A stretch of DNA of 33,978 bases from Nitrospiraceae bacterium (GTDB lineage Bacteria; Nitrospirota; Thermodesulfovibrionia; UBA6902), in contig QZKC01000048.1 in NCBI GenBank assembly GCA_003599425.1, positions 1 to 33,978 of the forward strand, read 5' to 3'. The number at the start of each line of letters is the position of its first letter. Within the stretch, counting starts at the first letter, position 1. The notes beneath the pieces were generated by a model. It ran no database searches, had not been told where the DNA came from, and saw only the letters and a list, made by a program, of their open reading frames with translations. The position numbers and the translations under genes were made by a program. Shown here in pieces: positions 22,015 through 30,276 of this stretch.

Positions 22015-22866
22015 CTAATAAAACTCTTTCAGAGTATGCTCTAATTTTGCAAGGTCAAATGATTGCCTTACAAGAGGTCTCTCTTTAATGACCGGTATCC
22101 TCTCCTCAAGAATAGGCCTTTTATTTCTGAAAATAATCCCTAACGGAATGCGATCACCCCATTCAAGGGCTCTCTGAAATGCAGCGATTCTGTCTTCTGG
22201 ATTGTGTTCAGTCTCTATGTGATAAACCCTTTGCTTATACCACTCAAACGTATTTATCTTGTTGAAAGTCACGCAGGGCTGCAGTATATCAACAAGACTG
22301 AAGCCGTTGTGATTGACCGCTTCTTTTATCAGCCATGTTAAATGTTCCATGTCACCAGAAAAGCTTCTCGCTACAAAACTGCAGTCAAGTGCTATTGCCA
22401 AAGCAAGGGGATTGAGCTGCCCTGAAAACACTCCGAAAGGCTGGTTCTTAGTCTTCATCCCCTCCATACTTGTCGGTGAAGCCTGCCCTTTTGTGAGACC
22501 GTATATCTGGTTGTCATGGACAAAGAGCTTTACATTAATGTTCCTTCTGATATTATGAACAAAGTGATTCCCGCCCTCGCCATAACAATCGCCGTCTCCG
22601 GTGAATATAAATACAGGATGCTCGTGGTTTGCAAGCCTTATGCCGGTAGCAACAGGCAATGCCCTGCCATGAAGTCCGTTAAATGTGTTGCATTTGACGT
22701 AATGGGGAAATTTGGCAGCCTGCCCTATTCCGGATACAATAGTAAACTGATGAGGCTCGATATTCATTTCAACCATTGCATCCTTAAATGCCTTCAGTAT
22801 GCCAAAATTCCCACATCCCGGACACCAAGCTGGATGCTGTCCTCTATAATCCTGTAAAGTAGGCAT
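22015..22866 (-). CDS. korB: 2-oxoacid:ferredoxin oxidoreductase, beta subunit
   Basis: A 283-residue beta subunit. CPGCGNFG near the N-terminus (C15, C18) supplies Fe-S ligands, and GDGDCYGEGGNHFVHNIRRN with FVHDNQIYGLTKGQ is the thiamine diphosphate and Mg-binding region. The enzyme family converts a 2-oxoacid and CoA to an acyl-CoA and CO2 with reduction of ferredoxin, or the reverse in the reductive TCA cycle. The short beta subunit next to a fused gamma-alpha subunit matches 2-oxoglutarate-type (KorAB) enzymes, but substrate cannot be fixed from sequence. GGGAGA precedes the ATG, and the start overlaps the alpha gene by 23 nt. No separate ferredoxin-like delta subunit is adjacent. Confidence 0.92.
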   Translation of the reverse strand: MPTLQDYRGQHPAWCPGCGNFGILKAFKDAMVEMNIEPHQFTIVSGIGQAAKFPHYVKCNTFNGLHGRALPVATGIRLANHEHPVFIFTGDGDCYGEGGNHFVHNIRRNINVKLFVHDNQIYGLTKGQASPTSMEGMKTKNQPFGVFSGQLNPLALAIALDCSFVARSFSGDMEHLTWLIKEAVNHNGFSLVDILQPCVTFNKINTFEWYKQRVYHIETEHNPEDRIAAFQRALEWGDRIPLGIIFRNKRPILEERIPVIKERPLVRQSFDLAKLEHTLKEFY

Positions 22867-24586
22867 TCAGTTCTCCCAGTAGCCCGTCCAGAGTAAACGG
22901 TCTTCCATCATATTTTGTGATCATATGCTTAAATGTATATCCTGTTTCAGCCCGCACGAGGCGTGCAAACTGTCCAGTTGCGTTGTTCTCGATACAGATG
23001 GAATGTTTTGCTTTATTTAAAATTCCAAGATAATCGAATTTTTCATTTTCAGGGAACGGGTATATCTCAGTGAAATGAAGCACAGCGACTTTATTGTGTG
23101 GATCAGGTGTATTTTGCAAAAGGACATCAACAGCTTCTTTTACCACTCCATATGTTGAACCCCAACCAACAAGCACTATTTCTGGATCACTATCACCATA
23201 AAAAATAGGCGGAGCTATCTCTTCCCTGACATGAGGCAGCTTCTTGAACAGCCTCTTATCCAGCATCCTTTTCCTTGTTTCAGAATCCTCAATAATATGA
23301 CCTTCCTCATTATGCTCATCGCTGTCGGTCACTACAAGAAAGCTTGAATCACCGGGAACCGCAAGAGAGGTCACACCATTTTCTGTAAATGCATGACGTT
23401 TATATTCTGTCAGATTTTTCAATCCATCCCCTCTCAATCGCTGATCGGAATAATGGATCTTACTGAGGTCAAATTTATCGAAAGTCCATTGGGTATCAGC
23501 AAGGTACTGGTCAGTAAGAATAATGACAGGTATCTGGTATTTCTCAGCAATACCGAACGCCTTATTTGTGAGATAGAAGGCCTGCTCAGGTGTTCCCGGA
23601 GCCAGAACAACACGAGGGAATTCCCCATGTGCCGTATAAAGGGCAAATAGCAGGTCTCCCTGTTCTGTCCGTGTCGGCAAGCCGGTCGCGGGGCCCGGCC
23701 TCTGTGCAAGAGCAATTACTATTGGTGTCTCGGTTATTCCTGCCAGTGAAAGCCCCTCCACCATAAGGGCAAAGCCACCTCCTGAAGTCCCTGTCATGGC
23801 CCTTACACCGGCAAAAGAAGCGCCAAGTGCCATGTTTATCGCAGCGATCTCATCTTCGGCCTGTTCAATGATGATCCCATATTCCTCTTCCTTGTCAGCA
23901 ATATAATTCATGATCCCTGTAGAAGGCGTCATAGGATATGCAGAATAGAATTTCAGTCCTGACGCAATAGCTCCAAGACCTATCGCTTCATTGCCTGCAA
24001 TGAGCATAAAGGGTAAACTGCCTCTTTTCACTATACTGAATGAGCATCTCTGGCAGTTCTTGACAGCAAACTCACGGCCTGCCTGTGCTGCCTTGATATT
24101 GCTGTTTATTATTTCATCACCTTTTTTGCTGAATGTAATTTTTAACATTTCAAATAGAACATCCAGTTCCATTCCCAGCATGCCGAGAACAGCTCCCACT
24201 GCAACAGTGTTTGCCATGATCTTGCTTTTTCCGTGTTCCTCAGCAAGCGCAACGAAAGGTATATCAAGAAAGTGATCCTTTTCATATTTTTGCTTTAATG
24301 CAGCGGAATCATAAATAATAATCCCATTTTCAGTCAGCTCTTTTTCATGCTGTACAATGCTTTCCTTGTCCAGTGCAACCACAATATCGATCATGTCCCT
24401 GGATGATGTGATCTGCTCATCAGATACCCTGACCTGAAAGAAATTGTGCCCTCCCCGAATGCGCGATTCATAATCCTGGTGGGTAAAGACATGATACCCG
24501 GATTTTGCAAAGACATGGGCAAGCGTATCCCCAACAGTCTGTATTCCCTGCCCTGCTTCACCACCTATTCTTATTGAATAATCCAT
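22844..24586 (-). CDS. korA: 2-oxoacid:ferredoxin oxidoreductase, fused gamma-alpha subunit
   Basis: A 580-residue protein. Residues about 1-180 are the gamma domain, opening with YSIRIGGEAGQGIQTVG. Residues about 190-580 are the alpha (pyrimidine-binding) domain with FYSAYPMTPSTGIMNYI, EDEIAAINMALGASFAG and GTSGGGFALM, all typical of the family. ATG 24586 is preferred, with GGAAG before it, over an ATG four codons earlier. The pair with korB makes a cytoplasmic CoA-acylating oxidoreductase that needs ferredoxin. The gene follows a rubrerythrin-like gene by 22 nt, so it may share that transcript. Confidence 0.93.
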   Translation of the reverse strand: MDYSIRIGGEAGQGIQTVGDTLAHVFAKSGYHVFTHQDYESRIRGGHNFFQVRVSDEQITSSRDMIDIVVALDKESIVQHEKELTENGIIIYDSAALKQKYEKDHFLDIPFVALAEEHGKSKIMANTVAVGAVLGMLGMELDVLFEMLKITFSKKGDEIINSNIKAAQAGREFAVKNCQRCSFSIVKRGSLPFMLIAGNEAIGLGAIASGLKFYSAYPMTPSTGIMNYIADKEEEYGIIIEQAEDEIAAINMALGASFAGVRAMTGTSGGGFALMVEGLSLAGITETPIVIALAQRPGPATGLPTRTEQGDLLFALYTAHGEFPRVVLAPGTPEQAFYLTNKAFGIAEKYQIPVIILTDQYLADTQWTFDKFDLSKIHYSDQRLRGDGLKNLTEYKRHAFTENGVTSLAVPGDSSFLVVTDSDEHNEEGHIIEDSETRKRMLDKRLFKKLPHVREEIAPPIFYGDSDPEIVLVGWGSTYGVVKEAVDVLLQNTPDPHNKVAVLHFTEIYPFPENEKFDYLGILNKAKHSICIENNATGQFARLVRAETGYTFKHMITKYDGRPFTLDGLLGELNAYFTGL

Positions 24587-24608
24587 GACTACTTCCATTC
24601 CAATCAGG

Positions 24609-25073
24609 TCACAGTGACTGCCTCATCTCTGCCAGCCATCTGATATGGCTCTTTTCCTCATTGATGATCTCATTCAGAATCGCATCTTCCCCTAATACAT
24701 CTTTAAGGCCATAATAGTATAAAAGAGTTTCTCTTTCAAAACCGATTGCAAAACGGACTGCGTCCGCTCCTGCATTAAGGTGTTCAAGTGAAACAAGCGA
24801 CTTGTTCTTGCCAAGGAAAAATTCAGACTCCGCAACGGCCCGGAGAAATGCCGATGCTTCACCTGTTTCATCAACAATATTGTCCGGCACTGTTTTTTTA
24901 AGTTCGGAGAACTTCATCTCATGCTGCAGCTCCTTTGCAGCAAGTGTCTCAAAAAGTTTTTTCAGTTTTGCATCCTCGCCGAATTTCCCAGACATGCGGG
25001 TATAAAAATCATATCCAAGCCTTTCCGTCTGAACTGCCTGTTCAACCACTTCCTGTATGGAATATTTTTCCAT
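24609..25073 (-). CDS. Rubrerythrin-like ferritin family protein
   Basis: A 154-residue four-helix protein with a full set of diiron ligands: E17 in QTERLGYDFY, E48-x2-H51 in AKELQHE, E113 in GFERETLLYY, and E140-x2-H143 in NEEKSHIRWL. It lacks the C-terminal rubredoxin domain (no CxxC pair), so it is an erythrin-like short form. Such proteins handle peroxide or iron in anaerobes. GGAGGG precedes the ATG. It lies 20 nt after the DUF255 gene and just before korA, which suggests protection of oxygen-sensitive Fe-S enzymes, as inference. It is one of four ferritin-like proteins in 6 kb. Confidence 0.85.
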   Translation of the reverse strand: MEKYSIQEVVEQAVQTERLGYDFYTRMSGKFGEDAKLKKLFETLAAKELQHEMKFSELKKTVPDNIVDETGEASAFLRAVAESEFFLGKNKSLVSLEHLNAGADAVRFAIGFERETLLYYYGLKDVLGEDAILNEIINEEKSHIRWLAEMRQSL

Positions 25074-25093
25074 ATACCCTCCTCAGTAGGAAT

Positions 25094-27049
25094 TTAAAAC
25101 TCTTTATCCAGAAATTTCTTCAACCCCTCAGGGTCATGTAGCGGCTCATAACAGATATTTTTTTTGCAGGGGATGATGTAACCCCTATCCTCGCGATATG
25201 AAATAAACATATAGGGTTTATACCATGTTATGGCTGCTGATGCAAGTTCACTTTCCGGCAAAGCATGCACCGCAAGTCTGAGTCCGTTAAAATAAGCGTC
25301 GAGCGCGTAAAAATAATATCCCGCATGGATTCCTATCCCCTTTGCCCTCAGAGAAAACACCTTGAGTATTTTTTCAGCATGCTGAAGATATTCTTCTTTC
25401 TGAGTCACAAAATGAAGCTTCAGAAATAACACCACAGCAAGTGAGTTTGCCGATGAATGCGGCATATCTTCCACTCCCTTGATAATCAGTCCCAAGAGAT
25501 GATCGTCGGTATCAAAGAACCCGCCTTCTTTTTCATCCCATAACTTTTTTATGCACAGACCCATGATCTCCTCTGCTGTCCGGAGATAAGCAATATCTGC
25601 AGATACTTCATAGGCTAAGATCAAGGCGTCAACAAGATGAATATAGTCATCCAGCAAGGCATTCACCCCGTCTGTATGAAAGAGCTGCCCTCCAACAAAA
25701 CGTATTTTCAAAATCCTGTCGAGGCTTTTTATGGCAAAATTTTTAGCCCTGTCATCCCTGAATACCCTGGAGTAAAGCAAGAAGGACGATATAAGCATTC
25801 CGTTTATTGATGTATACAATGTCCGGTCAATAAAAGGCGTCTGGCGCCTGTTTCTTTCCTGAAACAGTTTCTTCTTCCCCCTTTTTATTATATCCCCAAC
25901 TTCCTTCTTATCTTTTGCGGTCTGCCTTGCGATCTCCTTTTCATCCATAACCGTAAACAGGACTTTCTTGGTTGCATCATGATGCATGCTCCCCATCTCA
26001 TTCATGAGATGAAGAGAGAGGACTCTATATTCGTCTTCATTCAAAATTCTCCTGAAATCCTCATCGGTCCATGTAAAATAACCGCCTTCATCATCGGGAA
26101 TGACATCAGCATCCTGGCTCGCATAAAAACCTCCGTCAGGGTCTGAGAGCACCTGGGAGATAAACTCCATTGTTCCTTCGGCAACATCTCTGAACAGCTT
26201 ATCGCCAAATACAGAATACGCATGCACATAATTCCTGAGCAGCCACGCATTATCGTCAGCCATTTTTTCAAAATGAGGGATGACCCAGGCCTTGTCAGTT
26301 GAATATCGGTGGAACCCACCCCCTATCTGGTCATAAAAACCTCCCAATGCCATAGCCTCAAGCGTCTTCCTGACTGCAAGTCCAATGGTCTCACTTTTAA
26401 TAAGAGAATACCTTCCGATAAGGAACTCCAGGGCGCCAGCCATGGGGAATTTAGGTGCAGACCCAAAGCCACCATTTTGCAGGTCGACCTCCGAGAGAAT
26501 ATCAGTTACAGCTTCTTCAAGAAATGACTCTTTGATGTCCCTTGCAGCCGAAGGCTCAGGTTTCAGGGCATCTGACAGTTTATTTGTATAGTTGGTAATT
26601 TCGTCTCTTTTCGTTTTGTACAGTTCAGTAATTGCATTGAGTACTTTCCTGAAACCAGGTTTCCCGAATCTGTCTTCCGGAGGGAAATAGGTGCCGCCAT
26701 AAAAAGGCTTTTTATCATATGTCAGAAAGACACTGAGCGGCCAGCCGCCGCCTGAACCCATTGCAGCAACTGCCAACTGGTATCTTCTGTCTATATCAGG
26801 CCTTTCGTCCCTGTCAAGCTTTATACAGATGAAGTTTTGATTGAGGAACTGAGCAAGCTCATCGTCATAAAAACTTTCCCTGGCCATAACATGACACCAG
26901 TGACACCATACAGCTCCAGAACTGAGGAACAGCGGCTTGTCTTCCTGTTGAGCCTTTTCGAAAGCTTTTTCAGACCATGGATACCAGTCGATTTTCTGGT
27001 CTTCTGAGTGTTTCAGGTAAGCAGATTTTTCTTTGGAGAGCCTGTTCAC
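25094..27049 (-). CDS. DUF255/YyaL (SPATA20-like) thioredoxin-domain protein
   Basis: A 651-residue protein of normal length for this family. The N-terminal thioredoxin-like domain has FLSSGAVWCHWCHVM (C49, C52) and ESFYDDELAQFLNQNFICIKLDRDERPDID, the conserved family block. GGGWPLSVFLTYDKKPFYGG follows. The rest is an alpha/alpha barrel like that of glycoside hydrolases and N-acylglucosamine 2-epimerases (IGGGFHRYSTD, HFEKMADDNAWLL, YFTWTDED). The biochemical role is not settled. The GTG start overlaps the CBM48 gene stop by 4 nt, so the two are translated together, hinting at a carbohydrate-linked function. Confidence 0.92.
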   Translation of the reverse strand: MNRLSKEKSAYLKHSEDQKIDWYPWSEKAFEKAQQEDKPLFLSSGAVWCHWCHVMARESFYDDELAQFLNQNFICIKLDRDERPDIDRRYQLAVAAMGSGGGWPLSVFLTYDKKPFYGGTYFPPEDRFGKPGFRKVLNAITELYKTKRDEITNYTNKLSDALKPEPSAARDIKESFLEEAVTDILSEVDLQNGGFGSAPKFPMAGALEFLIGRYSLIKSETIGLAVRKTLEAMALGGFYDQIGGGFHRYSTDKAWVIPHFEKMADDNAWLLRNYVHAYSVFGDKLFRDVAEGTMEFISQVLSDPDGGFYASQDADVIPDDEGGYFTWTDEDFRRILNEDEYRVLSLHLMNEMGSMHHDATKKVLFTVMDEKEIARQTAKDKKEVGDIIKRGKKKLFQERNRRQTPFIDRTLYTSINGMLISSFLLYSRVFRDDRAKNFAIKSLDRILKIRFVGGQLFHTDGVNALLDDYIHLVDALILAYEVSADIAYLRTAEEIMGLCIKKLWDEKEGGFFDTDDHLLGLIIKGVEDMPHSSANSLAVVLFLKLHFVTQKEEYLQHAEKILKVFSLRAKGIGIHAGYYFYALDAYFNGLRLAVHALPESELASAAITWYKPYMFISYREDRGYIIPCKKNICYEPLHDPEGLKKFLDKEF

Positions 27050-27450
27050 ACTACAACTACAGAATCATCAGCGCCAAAATCATTGGGGACGTACTTGTCA
27101 GCAAACCAGTCATTTTCCCACTTGTTCGTATCAATGAGATATCTGAAACGGTATTCTCTGCTGCAGGGAAGGTCAAGCGTCAGGGTAAAATCCCCATTCT
27201 TCAATTTCTTCATCCTGTTCTCGGTCAGATCCCAATTATTAAAATCGCCCACAATGGTGACCATCTTTGCATCGGCTGCAGCCTCTTTTGGCAGCCTGAA
27301 AGTTACCTTGCATATTGCGCCTGATTTAACATATTGCTTCTTGAGGCTTTTAGATTCAGACGGTTTTATTGTTTTAGCTGGAGTTGGCCTTTTGGCCGGT
27401 GCTTTCATAGTCGCGCTGTATGCCTTCTTTTCTATGGCTTTTTTCATCAT
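27046..27450 (-). CDS. CBM48/AMPK-type glycogen-binding domain protein
   Basis: A 134-residue protein. The first 40 residues are lysine-, alanine- and proline-rich and probably unstructured. Residues about 45-134 form one CBM48-like domain: VTIVGDFNNWD, TLTLDLPCSREYRFRYLID, then WENDWFADKYVPNDFGADDS. These domains bind glycogen or maltodextrins. No catalytic domain is attached. GGAGGGGT precedes the tandem ATG-ATG start. The stop overlaps the GTG of the DUF255 gene. It may recruit its partner to a glucan or sense carbohydrate. Confidence 0.88.
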   Translation of the reverse strand: MMKKAIEKKAYSATMKAPAKRPTPAKTIKPSESKSLKKQYVKSGAICKVTFRLPKEAAADAKMVTIVGDFNNWDLTENRMKKLKNGDFTLTLDLPCSREYRFRYLIDTNKWENDWFADKYVPNDFGADDSVVVV

Positions 27451-27496
27451 ACCCCTCCTTTTTCTGTTTCAAACCCGAGTATCTTTTAAATTCCTG

Positions 27497-28333
27497 TTAA
27501 ACATTATACATACTGTTTAGCAGATTGCCAAGTCTGAGGAGGTGCTTTTTTTCTTCATCAATAAGCATGTTAAATATTTTCCGCATCCCTTCATTTTCTG
27601 TCTCACGGCTGATTTTCATATAAAGATCAAGTGAGTTTGTTTCAAGCTGCATTGAGAACTCAAGGATATCCTGAGGCTGCCTTTCCGGCTGCTTTACCCA
27701 TGCAATCGCCTCTGAAACCGAAATACCGCTTTCCATTATCCCGGACAATGTCCCTTGCCTGGCTTCTTCTGTCCAGTTATTGCTTCCCTTTATCAGGCGA
27801 TATGCTTCAAGGAGATTTGACTTGTGCATCTCCTCTGCCCTTACCAGAGAATCAAAGACCTTTTTAGCTGCTGCATCCAACAGCATATCTTTTACAGTTG
27901 CATAGAACTGAGCGGTTCCATCCTCAAGCGACCACGCCAAAGCAATAAATTCCTCGGCTGTTTTTCTGCCTTCAATTAAATACATCCCGGCTTCATACTC
28001 GCCGATAGCTTTCAGTCCCTTCCAGGCATCGATCCCGCCTTTTATGCTGTAAACATTTTCAAATCCCTGACCCTTTAACAGCGCCGCAGCCGAACTGCTG
28101 CGTACTCCCTTTTTTCAATACGTAACAATCTTTTTTGACGGGTCAAGCTCCTTCATCCTTTCCGGAAAAACCGACATAGGCATGAGAACCGCACCAGGCA
28201 TATGCTCTTTTTCATATTCATTAGGCTCCCTGACATCAACCAGCATGATCTCATCACCCTTATCCGAGATCATTTTCCCTGCATCATCAGGCGTGATAGT
28301 ATCTGCCCGGTGAAAGAGATCAGTAAGTTTCAT
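27497..28333 (-). CDS. Rhodanese-ferritin fusion, predicted selenoprotein (Sec73)
   Basis: The frame runs 278 codons with a single in-frame TGA (28115-28117). Before it is a rhodanese N-terminal half (IMLVDVREPNEYEKEHMPGA ... KKIVTY). After it come KKGVRSSSAAALL, GFENVYS and KGGIDAW, the standard second half. In rhodaneses the TGA position holds the catalytic cysteine (YCxxGxRS), so selenocysteine is the direct reading. Residues about 117-278 form a ferritin-like diiron domain with E137, E167-x2-H170 and a later DEEKKH. AAGGG precedes the ATG. Without Sec insertion the product is a dead 72-residue fragment. Alternatives are a nonsense mutation, with the ferritin part restarting at ATG 27985, or a sequencing error. 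Sec-type rhodaneses have been predicted before, as far as I know; this fusion form may be new. The Sec machinery is not in the window. Confidence 0.8.
28085..28117 (-). promoter_or_regulatory. Bacterial SECIS-like element after the in-frame TGA
   Basis: Starting 12 nt after the TGA, the mRNA can fold CGCAGC-AGUUCG-GCUGCG: a perfect 6-bp GC-rich stem and a 6-nt apical loop. The loop begins 18 nt after the UGA and has G as its second base. Both fit the known bacterial SECIS rules, which ask for a stem-loop directly downstream, a loop roughly 16-37 nt from UGA, and a G in its first two positions. Weak extra pairing is possible below the stem. Confidence 0.7.
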
Positions 28334-28347
28334 AGATATCCCTTACT

Positions 28348-28425
28348 TCAGTTTTTTCTGCTTTCTGAGTATTTAAGGAGTTCTGAATCTTCAAAGTTGT
28401 CTGCGCTGATGATCAGTGCCTTCAT
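28348..28425 (-). pseudogene. Remnant of a DJ-1/PfpI family gene
   Basis: A 25-codon frame starts by an ATGA overlap with the cytochrome c stop and reads MKALIISADNFEDSELL before losing similarity and stopping. That opening is the typical first strand and loop of DJ-1/PfpI proteins (KALI-x-SADxFED-x-EL). The rest of the domain, with its catalytic cysteine, is absent, and the rhodanese gene begins 14 nt later. It looks like a deletion that fused the start of a pfpI-like gene to the rhodanese leader. It may still be translated and couple ribosomes from the cytochrome gene to the selenoprotein gene. Confidence 0.6.
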
Positions 28426-28742
28426 TTGTGTTCCATCCCTTTCATGCCGTGATGGTGTATGCCGTAACCTCCGTAGTTCGATGTCAGATAATCGATGATG
28501 ATCTTTGCCTCTTCGTCTGATATGGGAGCTCCGTTCACATTCTTCATACGCATCACGGTACCGGCCCATTCCGCCTCTGTCTTCTTCCTTTCTTTAGACC
28601 AGCTCAGACTGTGGCACTGAATGCATTTATTTTCGAACAGGGTCTTTGCATCCATTTCTTTTTTTGACTCTCCTGCGGCATAAGCATTGTTTCCCATAAG
28701 AAGCATCGTAGCAGCACACAGCACCATCATTATCAGTCTCAT
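28422..28742 (-). CDS. Periplasmic monoheme cytochrome c
   Basis: A 106-residue protein with a signal peptide (RLIMMVLCAATMLLMG, likely cleavage after NAYA) and one heme c site, CIQCH (C40, C43, H44). EWAGTVMRMKN and a following ISDEEAKIIIDYLTSNYG match the small cytochromes related to the heme-binding domain of quinohemoprotein amine dehydrogenases; a methionine in VMRM is the probable sixth ligand. The C-terminus is histidine-rich (GIHHHGMKG), which may bind metal. AAAGGAGG precedes the ATG. Its redox partner is unknown. Confidence 0.87.
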   Translation of the reverse strand: MRLIMMVLCAATMLLMGNNAYAAGESKKEMDAKTLFENKCIQCHSLSWSKERKKTEAEWAGTVMRMKNVNGAPISDEEAKIIIDYLTSNYGGYGIHHHGMKGMEHK

Positions 28743-28778
28743 TGAATATTCGCCTCCTTTACGTATTTCAAAAGTCTG

Positions 28779-29033
28779 TCATTTTCTCTCTTCAAAGTTC
28801 TTTATAAACTCGCCTATTTTAACGCCGAGATAAATGCATTTGATGCCATCCATACATTCATCGGCATCCTGCTTTTCCAGATGAGTTACAAGCTCATGAG
28901 AATCTTTCTTTAATTTGATGTCATACGTTTTGAGCTCCCTGTTGAAATCGAGGTTTACCGTTATACCATGCTTCTCGATATCAGGATACATCTCCTTTAT
29001 TTTTTCCATCAGCGCGACATTTGTATAACCCAT
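28779..29033 (-). CDS. Small conserved-looking protein of unknown function
   Basis: An 84-residue, charged, soluble protein with no signal peptide or membrane segment. Two cysteines lie close together (C60 and C66 in ECMDGIKCIYLG), which could bind metal or form a disulfide. I do not recognise a family. A strong ribosome site (GGGAGGG) precedes the ATG. It begins 9 nt after a ferritin-like gene and lies 36 nt before the cytochrome c gene, so it belongs to the same redox operon. Confidence 0.75.
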   Translation of the reverse strand: MGYTNVALMEKIKEMYPDIEKHGITVNLDFNRELKTYDIKLKKDSHELVTHLEKQDADECMDGIKCIYLGVKIGEFIKNFEERK

Positions 29034-29042
29034 TGACCCTCC

Positions 29043-29543
29043 CTATGCCCACGGTGTTCCGCCATCAACAATAGTATGTTCTTCCCACATAAACCAGTTG
29101 CCGGTATCGTTAAGAAAATTAAAGGTATTCGAAAATATCTCATAATGCTGTTCTTCTTCTTTAATGAGCTTGGCAAAAAGTGCTTTTTCTTTTTCTGTTT
29201 TTGATTCAGACATCAGCTTTTTATAGAACTCAATGCCCTCCTGCTCCATCTTCATGGCTATCCTGAATGCCTCCAGCTCATCAGTTGTAGCCTCAACCTT
29301 CTGCATCATTTCGTCTTTCATGGATTCAAAAACAGTCCTGATATTCTTCATGGGGTGAACATCCTCAATGTGAATATCAAGTCCCTGCAGGATTTTTTTA
29401 ACGATCTCAAGATGCCGTTTTTCGTCCGCTGTCACGGTCTCAAACATCTTTTTCCCCGCTGGATATTTCGTTTTCTTTGCTGCCTCAGTATAAAACCTGA
29501 TTGCGTCTGTCTCCATTTTTTTTGCTACTTCTATGGCGTTCAT
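29043..29543 (-). CDS. Rubrerythrin-like ferritin family protein
   Basis: A 166-residue four-helix protein. Diiron ligand motifs are all present: METDAIRFY, TADEKRHLE (E-x2-H), MEQEGIEFY and KEEEQHYE (E-x2-H). The tail (NTFNFLNDTGNWFMWEEHTIVDGGTPWA) is aromatic-rich and is seen in some rubrerythrin-related proteins that lack rubredoxin. GGAG precedes the ATG. Expected to act in peroxide or iron handling in the cytoplasm. An inverted repeat (GCAATT...AATTGC, about 29580-29599) upstream could be an operator. Confidence 0.87.
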   Translation of the reverse strand: MNAIEVAKKMETDAIRFYTEAAKKTKYPAGKKMFETVTADEKRHLEIVKKILQGLDIHIEDVHPMKNIRTVFESMKDEMMQKVEATTDELEAFRIAMKMEQEGIEFYKKLMSESKTEKEKALFAKLIKEEEQHYEIFSNTFNFLNDTGNWFMWEEHTIVDGGTPWA

Positions 29544-29747
29544 AGTCTTTCTCCTTCCATGAATTAAATTTCACAACGCAGCAATTGAGACAAGAAATTG
29601 CAGATGTTGGGAAGAAATATATTTTTCGATACCTCAATGTAATTCCAATCAATACGAAAGCGCTTAGTATCATTTAAAGCTATATGCATAATTCAATAAA
29701 TTTTATCGAGTTAAAGATATTTCTGAACAATGTTTGCAGTTTTCTTG

Positions 29748-30218
29748 TCAACCAGTCCCTCCCAGCTTAAGACGCAGTTTCTTGAGATATTCAACATGCT
29801 TAACTTCCTGCTCCATCATATCTCTGAACACAACTCTTGCATTGGCGTCTTTCGCATCCCGGGACAGTTTGAGATATAAATTATAGGCCTTCCCCTCCAC
29901 TTCCATCGCTAACTTTAACGCCCCCATTTCATCCGTGATCTCATATTTATCTATACGTGATTTCAGATCCTTCACAGGGATACCCGCTTCCGTTACCGGG
30001 GCATTTGCTGTTTTATTGAATTCGTCAAAGGTTTGCGCCTCGATATCCCCCTGCATTGCCTGATATAAATACTGAATATAATCCATGTGCTTTGCTTCCC
30101 ATCCCGCCAGTTCGCTGAACATTTTCCTGGCCTCAGCGTTCTTCGATATTTCAGATGCATGTGAATAAAATTCCCTGGTACCTTTTTCCATAAGAAATGC
30201 TTCGATCAGAGACTGCAT
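29748..30218 (-). CDS. Rubrerythrin-like ferritin family protein
   Basis: A 156-residue four-helix protein with ligands in LMEKGTREFY, GWEAKHMDY (E-x2-H), MEVEGKAYNLY and EQEVKHVEYL (E-x2-H). No rubredoxin domain. ATG 30218 is chosen because GGGAGG lies just ahead of it at ideal spacing; an earlier ATG at 30242 has a poorer site. It follows the membrane operon by about 60 nt and leads into the other ferritin-like genes, but a 204-nt gap separates it from the next one. Confidence 0.86.
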   Translation of the reverse strand: MQSLIEAFLMEKGTREFYSHASEISKNAEARKMFSELAGWEAKHMDYIQYLYQAMQGDIEAQTFDEFNKTANAPVTEAGIPVKDLKSRIDKYEITDEMGALKLAMEVEGKAYNLYLKLSRDAKDANARVVFRDMMEQEVKHVEYLKKLRLKLGGTG

Positions 30219-30276
30219 CAGATCCTCCCTACCGGTAATCATCCTTCTGTTTTCTCCTTTCAGGAAATCTCATTTT

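Follow-up and report, generated by a model that had tools for sequence, protein, structure and literature searches.

The minus strand of a 33,978-nucleotide contig from a Nitrospiraceae bacterium (the window, that is, the whole stretch of DNA analysed) carries at positions 27497-28333 a gene that, judged from its sequence, almost certainly encodes a single fusion protein of 278 residues, composed of a selenocysteine (Sec) rhodanese domain and a ferritin-like domain. In translation the frame contains one internal stop, the TGA at 28117-28115, which is read as Sec at residue 73 and lies in the context IVTY-U-KKGVRSS, exactly where rhodaneses carry their catalytic cysteine. The 205 codons located 3' of this TGA are all open, and homology crosses it without a frame shift: the nearest relative among the matches listed is 59% identical across residues 1-278 and likewise has one TGA. 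A preliminary description of this DNA had reported both the single TGA at the catalytic position and the unbroken continuation of frame and similarity into a ferritin-like domain; the open frame, the Pfam matches given below and this relative bear it out, and the strand, which it left unstated, is the minus strand.

Since the same codon is TGA in 22 of 55 related fusions, a nonsense mutation or a sequencing error can be ruled out. A reassignment of TGA in the genetic code is also rejected, because TGA terminates 11 of the 26 open reading frames (ORFs) of the window taken as genes and is thus a normal stop here. There is a third reading, in which the TGA is a true stop: a rhodanese fragment of 72 residues would be made, and translation would re-initiate at 27985 to give the ferritin-like protein on its own. 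An in-frame ATG does exist at this position and opens an ORF of 162 amino acids, the only part of the fusion frame represented in a mechanical ORF list (at least 80 amino acids), and some of the assemblies that contain the TGA form lack part of the Sec genes. However, TGA recurs at this one position between intact flanks, a hairpin distinguishes the TGA genes, and there are relatives whose two parts are connected in frame through cysteine, all of which makes this reading very improbable. The gene of the window is therefore very probably, as far as sequence comparison can indicate, that of a selenoprotein rather than a broken gene.

For the relatives, 230 genomes of the class were searched (E ≤ 1e-18), and matches were found at 57 places in 56 genomes. 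Fifty-six of these places were extracted (the window and L068-L122), a short match in G202 being left out, and one (L121) lacks the rhodanese part, so that the counts of Sec and Cys forms rest on 55 fusions from 54 genomes, window included. The codon for residue 73 is TGA in 22 fusions and a cysteine codon in 33. In the 22 TGA forms it always occupies the same place in the motif Y-U-x-x-G-x-R-S, with intact flanks, and none of the extracted fusion rows has a second TGA in frame. Full-length cysteine homologues and further homologues with the in-frame TGA, which the preliminary description had named as support for Sec, are thus both present, and the two halves, far from being always separate genes, share a single frame in the extracted relatives. 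Together with the sel genes described below, these homologues support its claim of a Sec at the catalytic rhodanese position tethered to a ferritin-like domain. Some individual loci deserve mention. The Sec form of L096 (G218) has an extra in-frame TAG in its ferritin-like part (L096 3880-4060) and was kept in the counts; L078 has no stop inside the match but only at its end; and G299, which has a TGA form, stands outside the codon-position alignment counts. The genome G062 holds both versions of the fusion, Sec and Cys (L109, L112).

At the level of the phylum, 395 genomes were sampled; 53 had matches (E ≤ 1e-24), eight of them outside the class. Four more of these phylum loci (L128, L130-L132) show a stop aligned to residue 73, and one further locus has Cys. 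Searches beyond the genomes of the phylum matched one rhodanese part, from Paenibacillus; no plasmid or phage record matched 80% of the query at a single site, and no relative of the fusion was found among viral contigs.

The best tree of the fusions needs five changes between Sec and Cys labels (four to five in bootstrap replicates), compared with a mean of 17.4 for shuffled labels, and well-supported (starred) branches force two of the five. The window pairs with G001 on a starred branch, within a group, also starred, that comprises 19 Cys and three Sec rows.

A hairpin resembling a bacterial SECIS element (CGCAGC-AGTTCG-GCTGCG, 28085-28102, minus strand) lies 13-30 nucleotides past the TGA, with all six of its pairs formed (p = 0.003 against synonymous recoding). 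At least five of the six pairs are found from +13 to +30 in 21 of the 22 Sec genes and in only 5 of the 33 Cys genes, the specific stem having been selected after inspection of the sequences on which its test was run. The arginine codon of the stem is CGC in all 22 Sec genes, against 4 of the 33 Cys genes. When the sequences following the codon were compared by generic folding energy, Sec and Cys genes did not differ (mean z -0.89 and -0.53, respectively; p = 0.18), and a test by independent contrasts found two supported Sec/Cys contrasts, too few for significance. The Cys form L091 (G197), with a TGT codon, keeps all six pairs of the hairpin and sits in a Sec-rich group of the tree, the pattern that would be expected of a change from Sec to Cys.

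The preliminary description had also looked to selA, selB, selC (tRNA-Sec) and selD in the same genome, and all four were found over their cut-offs: selA with 625.7 bits, selB with 349.2, selD with 327 and tRNA-Sec with 74.5 (cut-off 47). Beyond this genome, selA was sought in 63 genomes, tRNA-Sec in 12 and selB in eight. Twenty-seven genomes have a TGA form; selA was found in 21 of these and not in the other six. Among these six, G158, G221, G265 and G299 have a tRNA-Sec over the cut-off but not selB; G001 has selB but no tRNA-Sec over the cut-off; and in G011 none of selA, selB and tRNA-Sec was found. As the assemblies are 74-99% complete, gaps may explain the missing genes, although the six genomes still count against the reading of TGA as Sec. 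Since 33 of the 36 other genomes searched also have selA, the machinery alone cannot decide between Sec and Cys.

Other candidate selenoproteins were seen along the way. In the selD gene of the same genome (L064, C40:19700-20611), an in-frame TGA lies within the motif G-G-U-A-A-K and a hairpin comes after it, which makes selenophosphate synthetase another probable selenoprotein of this genome. A separate rhodanese of the same genome (L123 5872-6135, on C96) has a TGA at the catalytic position, in a loop (VY-U-IFENRS) that lacks the usual glycine. In addition, at least seven standalone rhodanese matches contain two in-frame TGA codons (G003:C39, G011:C1, G020:C288, G021:C9, G027:C620, G040:C42 and G046:C36) and, from their sequences, are possible double-Sec rhodaneses.

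The rhodanese domain spans residues 14-105 (28019-28294, minus strand; Pfam PF00581, 82.6 bits against a cut-off of 22.2). The active loop of rhodaneses is CxxGxR, and the loop of the fusion is intact with Sec in place of Cys (Y-U-K-K-G-V-R-S; in general, U-x-x-G-x-R-S). Rhodanese chains were also the top Foldseek matches of the model predicted for the whole protein. The protein of the window has no cysteine besides the position of residue 73, and therefore its Sec has to work either unaided or together with a partner. The same is true of 18 of the 22 Sec forms, window included, in which there is consequently no intramolecular resolving thiol.

The second half (residues 126-276; 27506-27958, minus strand) is probably a four-helix ferritin-like domain with an intact predicted ligand pattern for a diiron site. 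Pfam Rubrerythrin matches residues 222-275 with 40.1 bits (cut-off 22.8). The structure of the whole protein was predicted from an alignment of 36 of the 55 fusions (pLDDT 89.5, pTM 0.80) and that of the C-terminal part from 18 (pLDDT 89.9, pTM 0.86), and four long helices appear in both models. The Foldseek matches of the C-terminal part include Dps-like proteins, COG1633, thioferritin, TM1526, Mn-catalase chains and a two-domain DJ-1/ferritin-like protein; they are weak, only one reaching E ≤ 0.001. Six ligands, E137, E167xxH170, E231 and E261xxH264, are assigned by pattern as two E/ExxH pairs. This pattern is complete in all 21 full-length Sec forms, the TAG of G218 being read through, and in 24 of the 32 full-length Cys forms. 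One starred Cys clade of eight members (L106, L112-L115 and L117-L119) lacks E167, E201, E231 and H264 throughout, which indicates that the fusion can persist without a diiron site. Since E201, located in the loop between the helix pairs, was lost together with three ligands in all eight, it may also belong to the site.

The explanation that we favour, with a probability of about 0.6 as a whole, is that the fusion is an enzyme of sulfane sulfur and peroxide metabolism. Sec73 would attack a donor of sulfane sulfur (persulfide, polysulfide or thiosulfate) to form a selenopersulfide, or would itself go through oxidation and reduction. With no other cysteine in the protein, the recipient of the sulfur or electrons would be either a partner or the fused domain, whose diiron site would consume peroxide or O2; the net result would be the handling of sulfane sulfur coupled to the removal of peroxide or O2. 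The individual chemical steps are less secure: that sulfane sulfur is the substrate of Sec is somewhat better than an even guess, and a link from there to peroxide or O2 through the diiron site falls a little short of even. More tentative is the idea that the Sec (or its selenopersulfide) directly reduces the diiron centre of the same polypeptide or serves it as substrate, with no protein thiol partner, thereby coupling sulfane sulfur to the reduction of O2 or peroxide. Two of the alternatives discussed below, a peroxidase and a sulfur-oxidising enzyme, are special cases of the favoured explanation, and hence their odds overlap with it.

The gene neighbourhood offers some clues about this function. 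Downstream of the fusion, on the same strand, there are a small protein with a CBM48/AMPK-type module (27046-27450, the next gene; similar genes, grouped as cluster c5 and judged alike by eye, occur in the vicinity of 8 of 56 loci), a thioredoxin-domain protein of the DUF255 family (25094-27049; PF03190, motif WCHWC), which is a possible reductant, a ferritin-like protein of the rubrerythrin family (24609-25073; cluster c2, nine loci), and the alpha (22844-24598; TIGR03710, 695 bits) and beta (22015-22866; TIGR02177, 369 bits) subunits of a 2-oxoacid:acceptor oxidoreductase. Upstream, also on the minus strand, lies the remnant of the start of a DJ-1/PfpI gene (28348-28425), which shares its first 17 residues with a gene that lies upstream of the L069 fusion and continues with eight unrelated residues and a stop; another member of this family, in L103, is DJ-1_PfpI by Pfam. 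It is followed by a probable small c-type cytochrome with one CxxCH motif (28422-28742), an 84-residue protein without a Pfam or NCBIfam match at E 0.001 (28779-29033; near 4 of 56 loci, window included) and two further ferritin-like proteins of the rubrerythrin family, assigned by domain match (29043-29543 and 29748-30242). The region 22015-30242 thus holds, on one strand, four ferritin-like genes, the fusion being one of them, besides the oxidoreductase, the DUF255 protein and the probable cytochrome.

Neighbours on the same strand and within 5 kb were counted at 56 loci; at 35 of them the sequence reaches 5 kb in both directions. Ferritin-like genes occur at 11 loci, DUF255 thioredoxin-domain genes at seven and DJ-1 genes at four (one confirmed by Pfam). 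Conservation is found mainly within the window's own group, in which ferritin-like, DUF255 and 2-oxoacid:acceptor oxidoreductase genes are the neighbours and DJ-1/PfpI accompanies some members; many loci have none of the redox or sulfur neighbours. Outside this group, the commonest named neighbour family is an ABC-type ATPase (10 loci, all Sec), with no evident link to sulfur or peroxide. The chemistry proposed earlier, in which the transfer of persulfide or selenide is coupled to the reduction of peroxide, is plausible and agrees with some of these neighbourhoods.

Part of the loci also point to an alternative in which the fusion is simply a peroxidase. Sec73 would reduce the diiron site without carrying sulfur, the rhodanese domain taking the place of the rubredoxin of rubrerythrins and thioredoxin-like or flavin partners reducing the Sec. 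For instance, superoxide dismutase (SOD) genes stand immediately upstream at three loci, all Cys and all confirmed by Pfam, and at four loci, all Sec and all confirmed by Pfam, the distance between the end of a Pyr_redox_2 flavoprotein gene and the likely start of the fusion is -1 to 20 bp; to these can be added the thioredoxin-domain neighbours, the complete ligand pattern, the lack of a Pfam rubredoxin match in the protein of the window and the absence of an intramolecular thiol in most Sec forms. Nevertheless, the active-site loop, which we take to be that of a sulfurtransferase, and the presence of Cys in 33 of the 55 relatives count against this alternative, which we regard as unlikely, though with a fair minority of the odds.

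Sulfur-related genes bear on two other alternatives. In the first, the rhodanese would load a persulfide for oxidation to sulfite at the diiron site, by analogy with the fusions of persulfide dioxygenase and rhodanese. Chains of such fusions (5ve3, 5ve4 and 5ve5) are among both the sequence and the fold matches of the rhodanese part; DsrC genes lie near the fusion at two loci, with Cys, and molybdopterin-oxidoreductase genes at three (one of each was scanned, the DsrC being confirmed by Pfam); and sulphur-transport genes (PF04143) are found 2.6-6.8 kb off at L086, L101 and L079, all Sec and one of them on the opposite strand. However, the metal domain of the fusion is a four-helix bundle, unlike the fold of persulfide dioxygenases, and its commonest redox neighbours are ferritin-like genes, so this kind of sulfur oxidation seems distinctly unlikely. 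In the second alternative, the fusion would serve the supply of selenium, sulfur or iron: rhodaneses can carry selenium, and the Sec-rhodanese would move selenide or sulfide for Fe-S or selenium metabolism while the ferritin-like domain holds iron. The Dps-like fold matches agree with such a role, as do the three loci with sulphur-transport genes and another three with class-V aminotransferase genes (4.1-5.7 kb off; one scanned with Pfam, the cysteine-desulfurase type being assigned by eye). Yet both kinds of gene are distant and absent from the core of the window's group, and the aminotransferases lie on the opposite strand at two of their three loci, as does the sulphur-transport gene at one of three; a supply role is, in our judgement, improbable.

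Several known proteins resemble parts of the fusion. An inventory of selenoproteins from 2026 lists five rhodanese-like forms, two of which (forms 2 and 4) have the motif UxxG (PMC13188914 Table 1). Like the protein of the window, with its U-K-K-G, they carry Sec in a rhodanese domain; their table entries, on which the comparison rests, give PF00581, the motif and one accession each, and name no ferritin-like partner. Neither "ferritin" nor "rubrerythrin" appears in the main text of that article, or in the main texts of PMC1088965, PMC1794560, PMC5029168 and PMC2398784. A literature search, with most subscription journals outside its scope, found no paper on a Sec rhodanese/ferritin-like fusion or on a rubrerythrin selenoprotein. 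Thus, Sec rhodaneses are known, while their fusion to a ferritin-like domain appears to be unreported within the literature searched. The TsoB rhodanese/DsbD selenoprotein (NF045694) and rhodanese_LYCAU (NF041203) are likewise families of rhodanese selenoproteins, but the protein of the window scores far under their NCBIfam cut-offs (33 against 805 bits and 47 against 115 bits, respectively), and none of the 20 NCBIfam models listed reaches its cut-off.

With diiron proteins of the rubrerythrin/COG1633 type (1vjx, 2oh3 and 2fzf), the fusion has in common the four-helix fold and the two E/ExxH pairs, assigned by pattern in the fusion. The vast majority of rubrerythrins have a C-terminal rubredoxin domain (PMC5114695). 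The fusion differs in having none, with no Pfam match to one and no cysteine besides the position of residue 73 in the protein of the window, and in carrying a Sec rhodanese at its N terminus instead. The persulfide dioxygenase-rhodanese fusion BpPRF (5ve3) also joins a rhodanese to an iron domain, as is proposed for the fusion of the window. In BpPRF this domain contains non-haem iron and the dioxygenase has a metallo-beta-lactamase fold, for which the protein of the window gave no Pfam match, its metal domain being of the four-helix ferritin-like type; the order of the domains is also reversed, since the rhodanese of BpPRF occupies residues 288-367 of 373. Finally, a protein of Anabaena (3fse) ties a ferritin-like to a DJ-1-like domain, which recalls the DJ-1 genes adjoining the fusion at 4 of 56 loci; compared by its title, it has a different partner domain and no mention of Sec.

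For genome annotation, the finding means that ordinary ORF calling drops the rhodanese half and the selenium from this gene, and probably does so in the other 21 genomes with the TGA form as well. The family also offers natural pairs of Sec and Cys forms, together with a Cys clade devoid of the iron-site pattern, so that the benefit of selenium over sulfur is open to study in a single fold. Should the two centres prove to be coupled, the fusion would be a selenium-diiron enzyme that links sulfane sulfur to the removal of oxidants.
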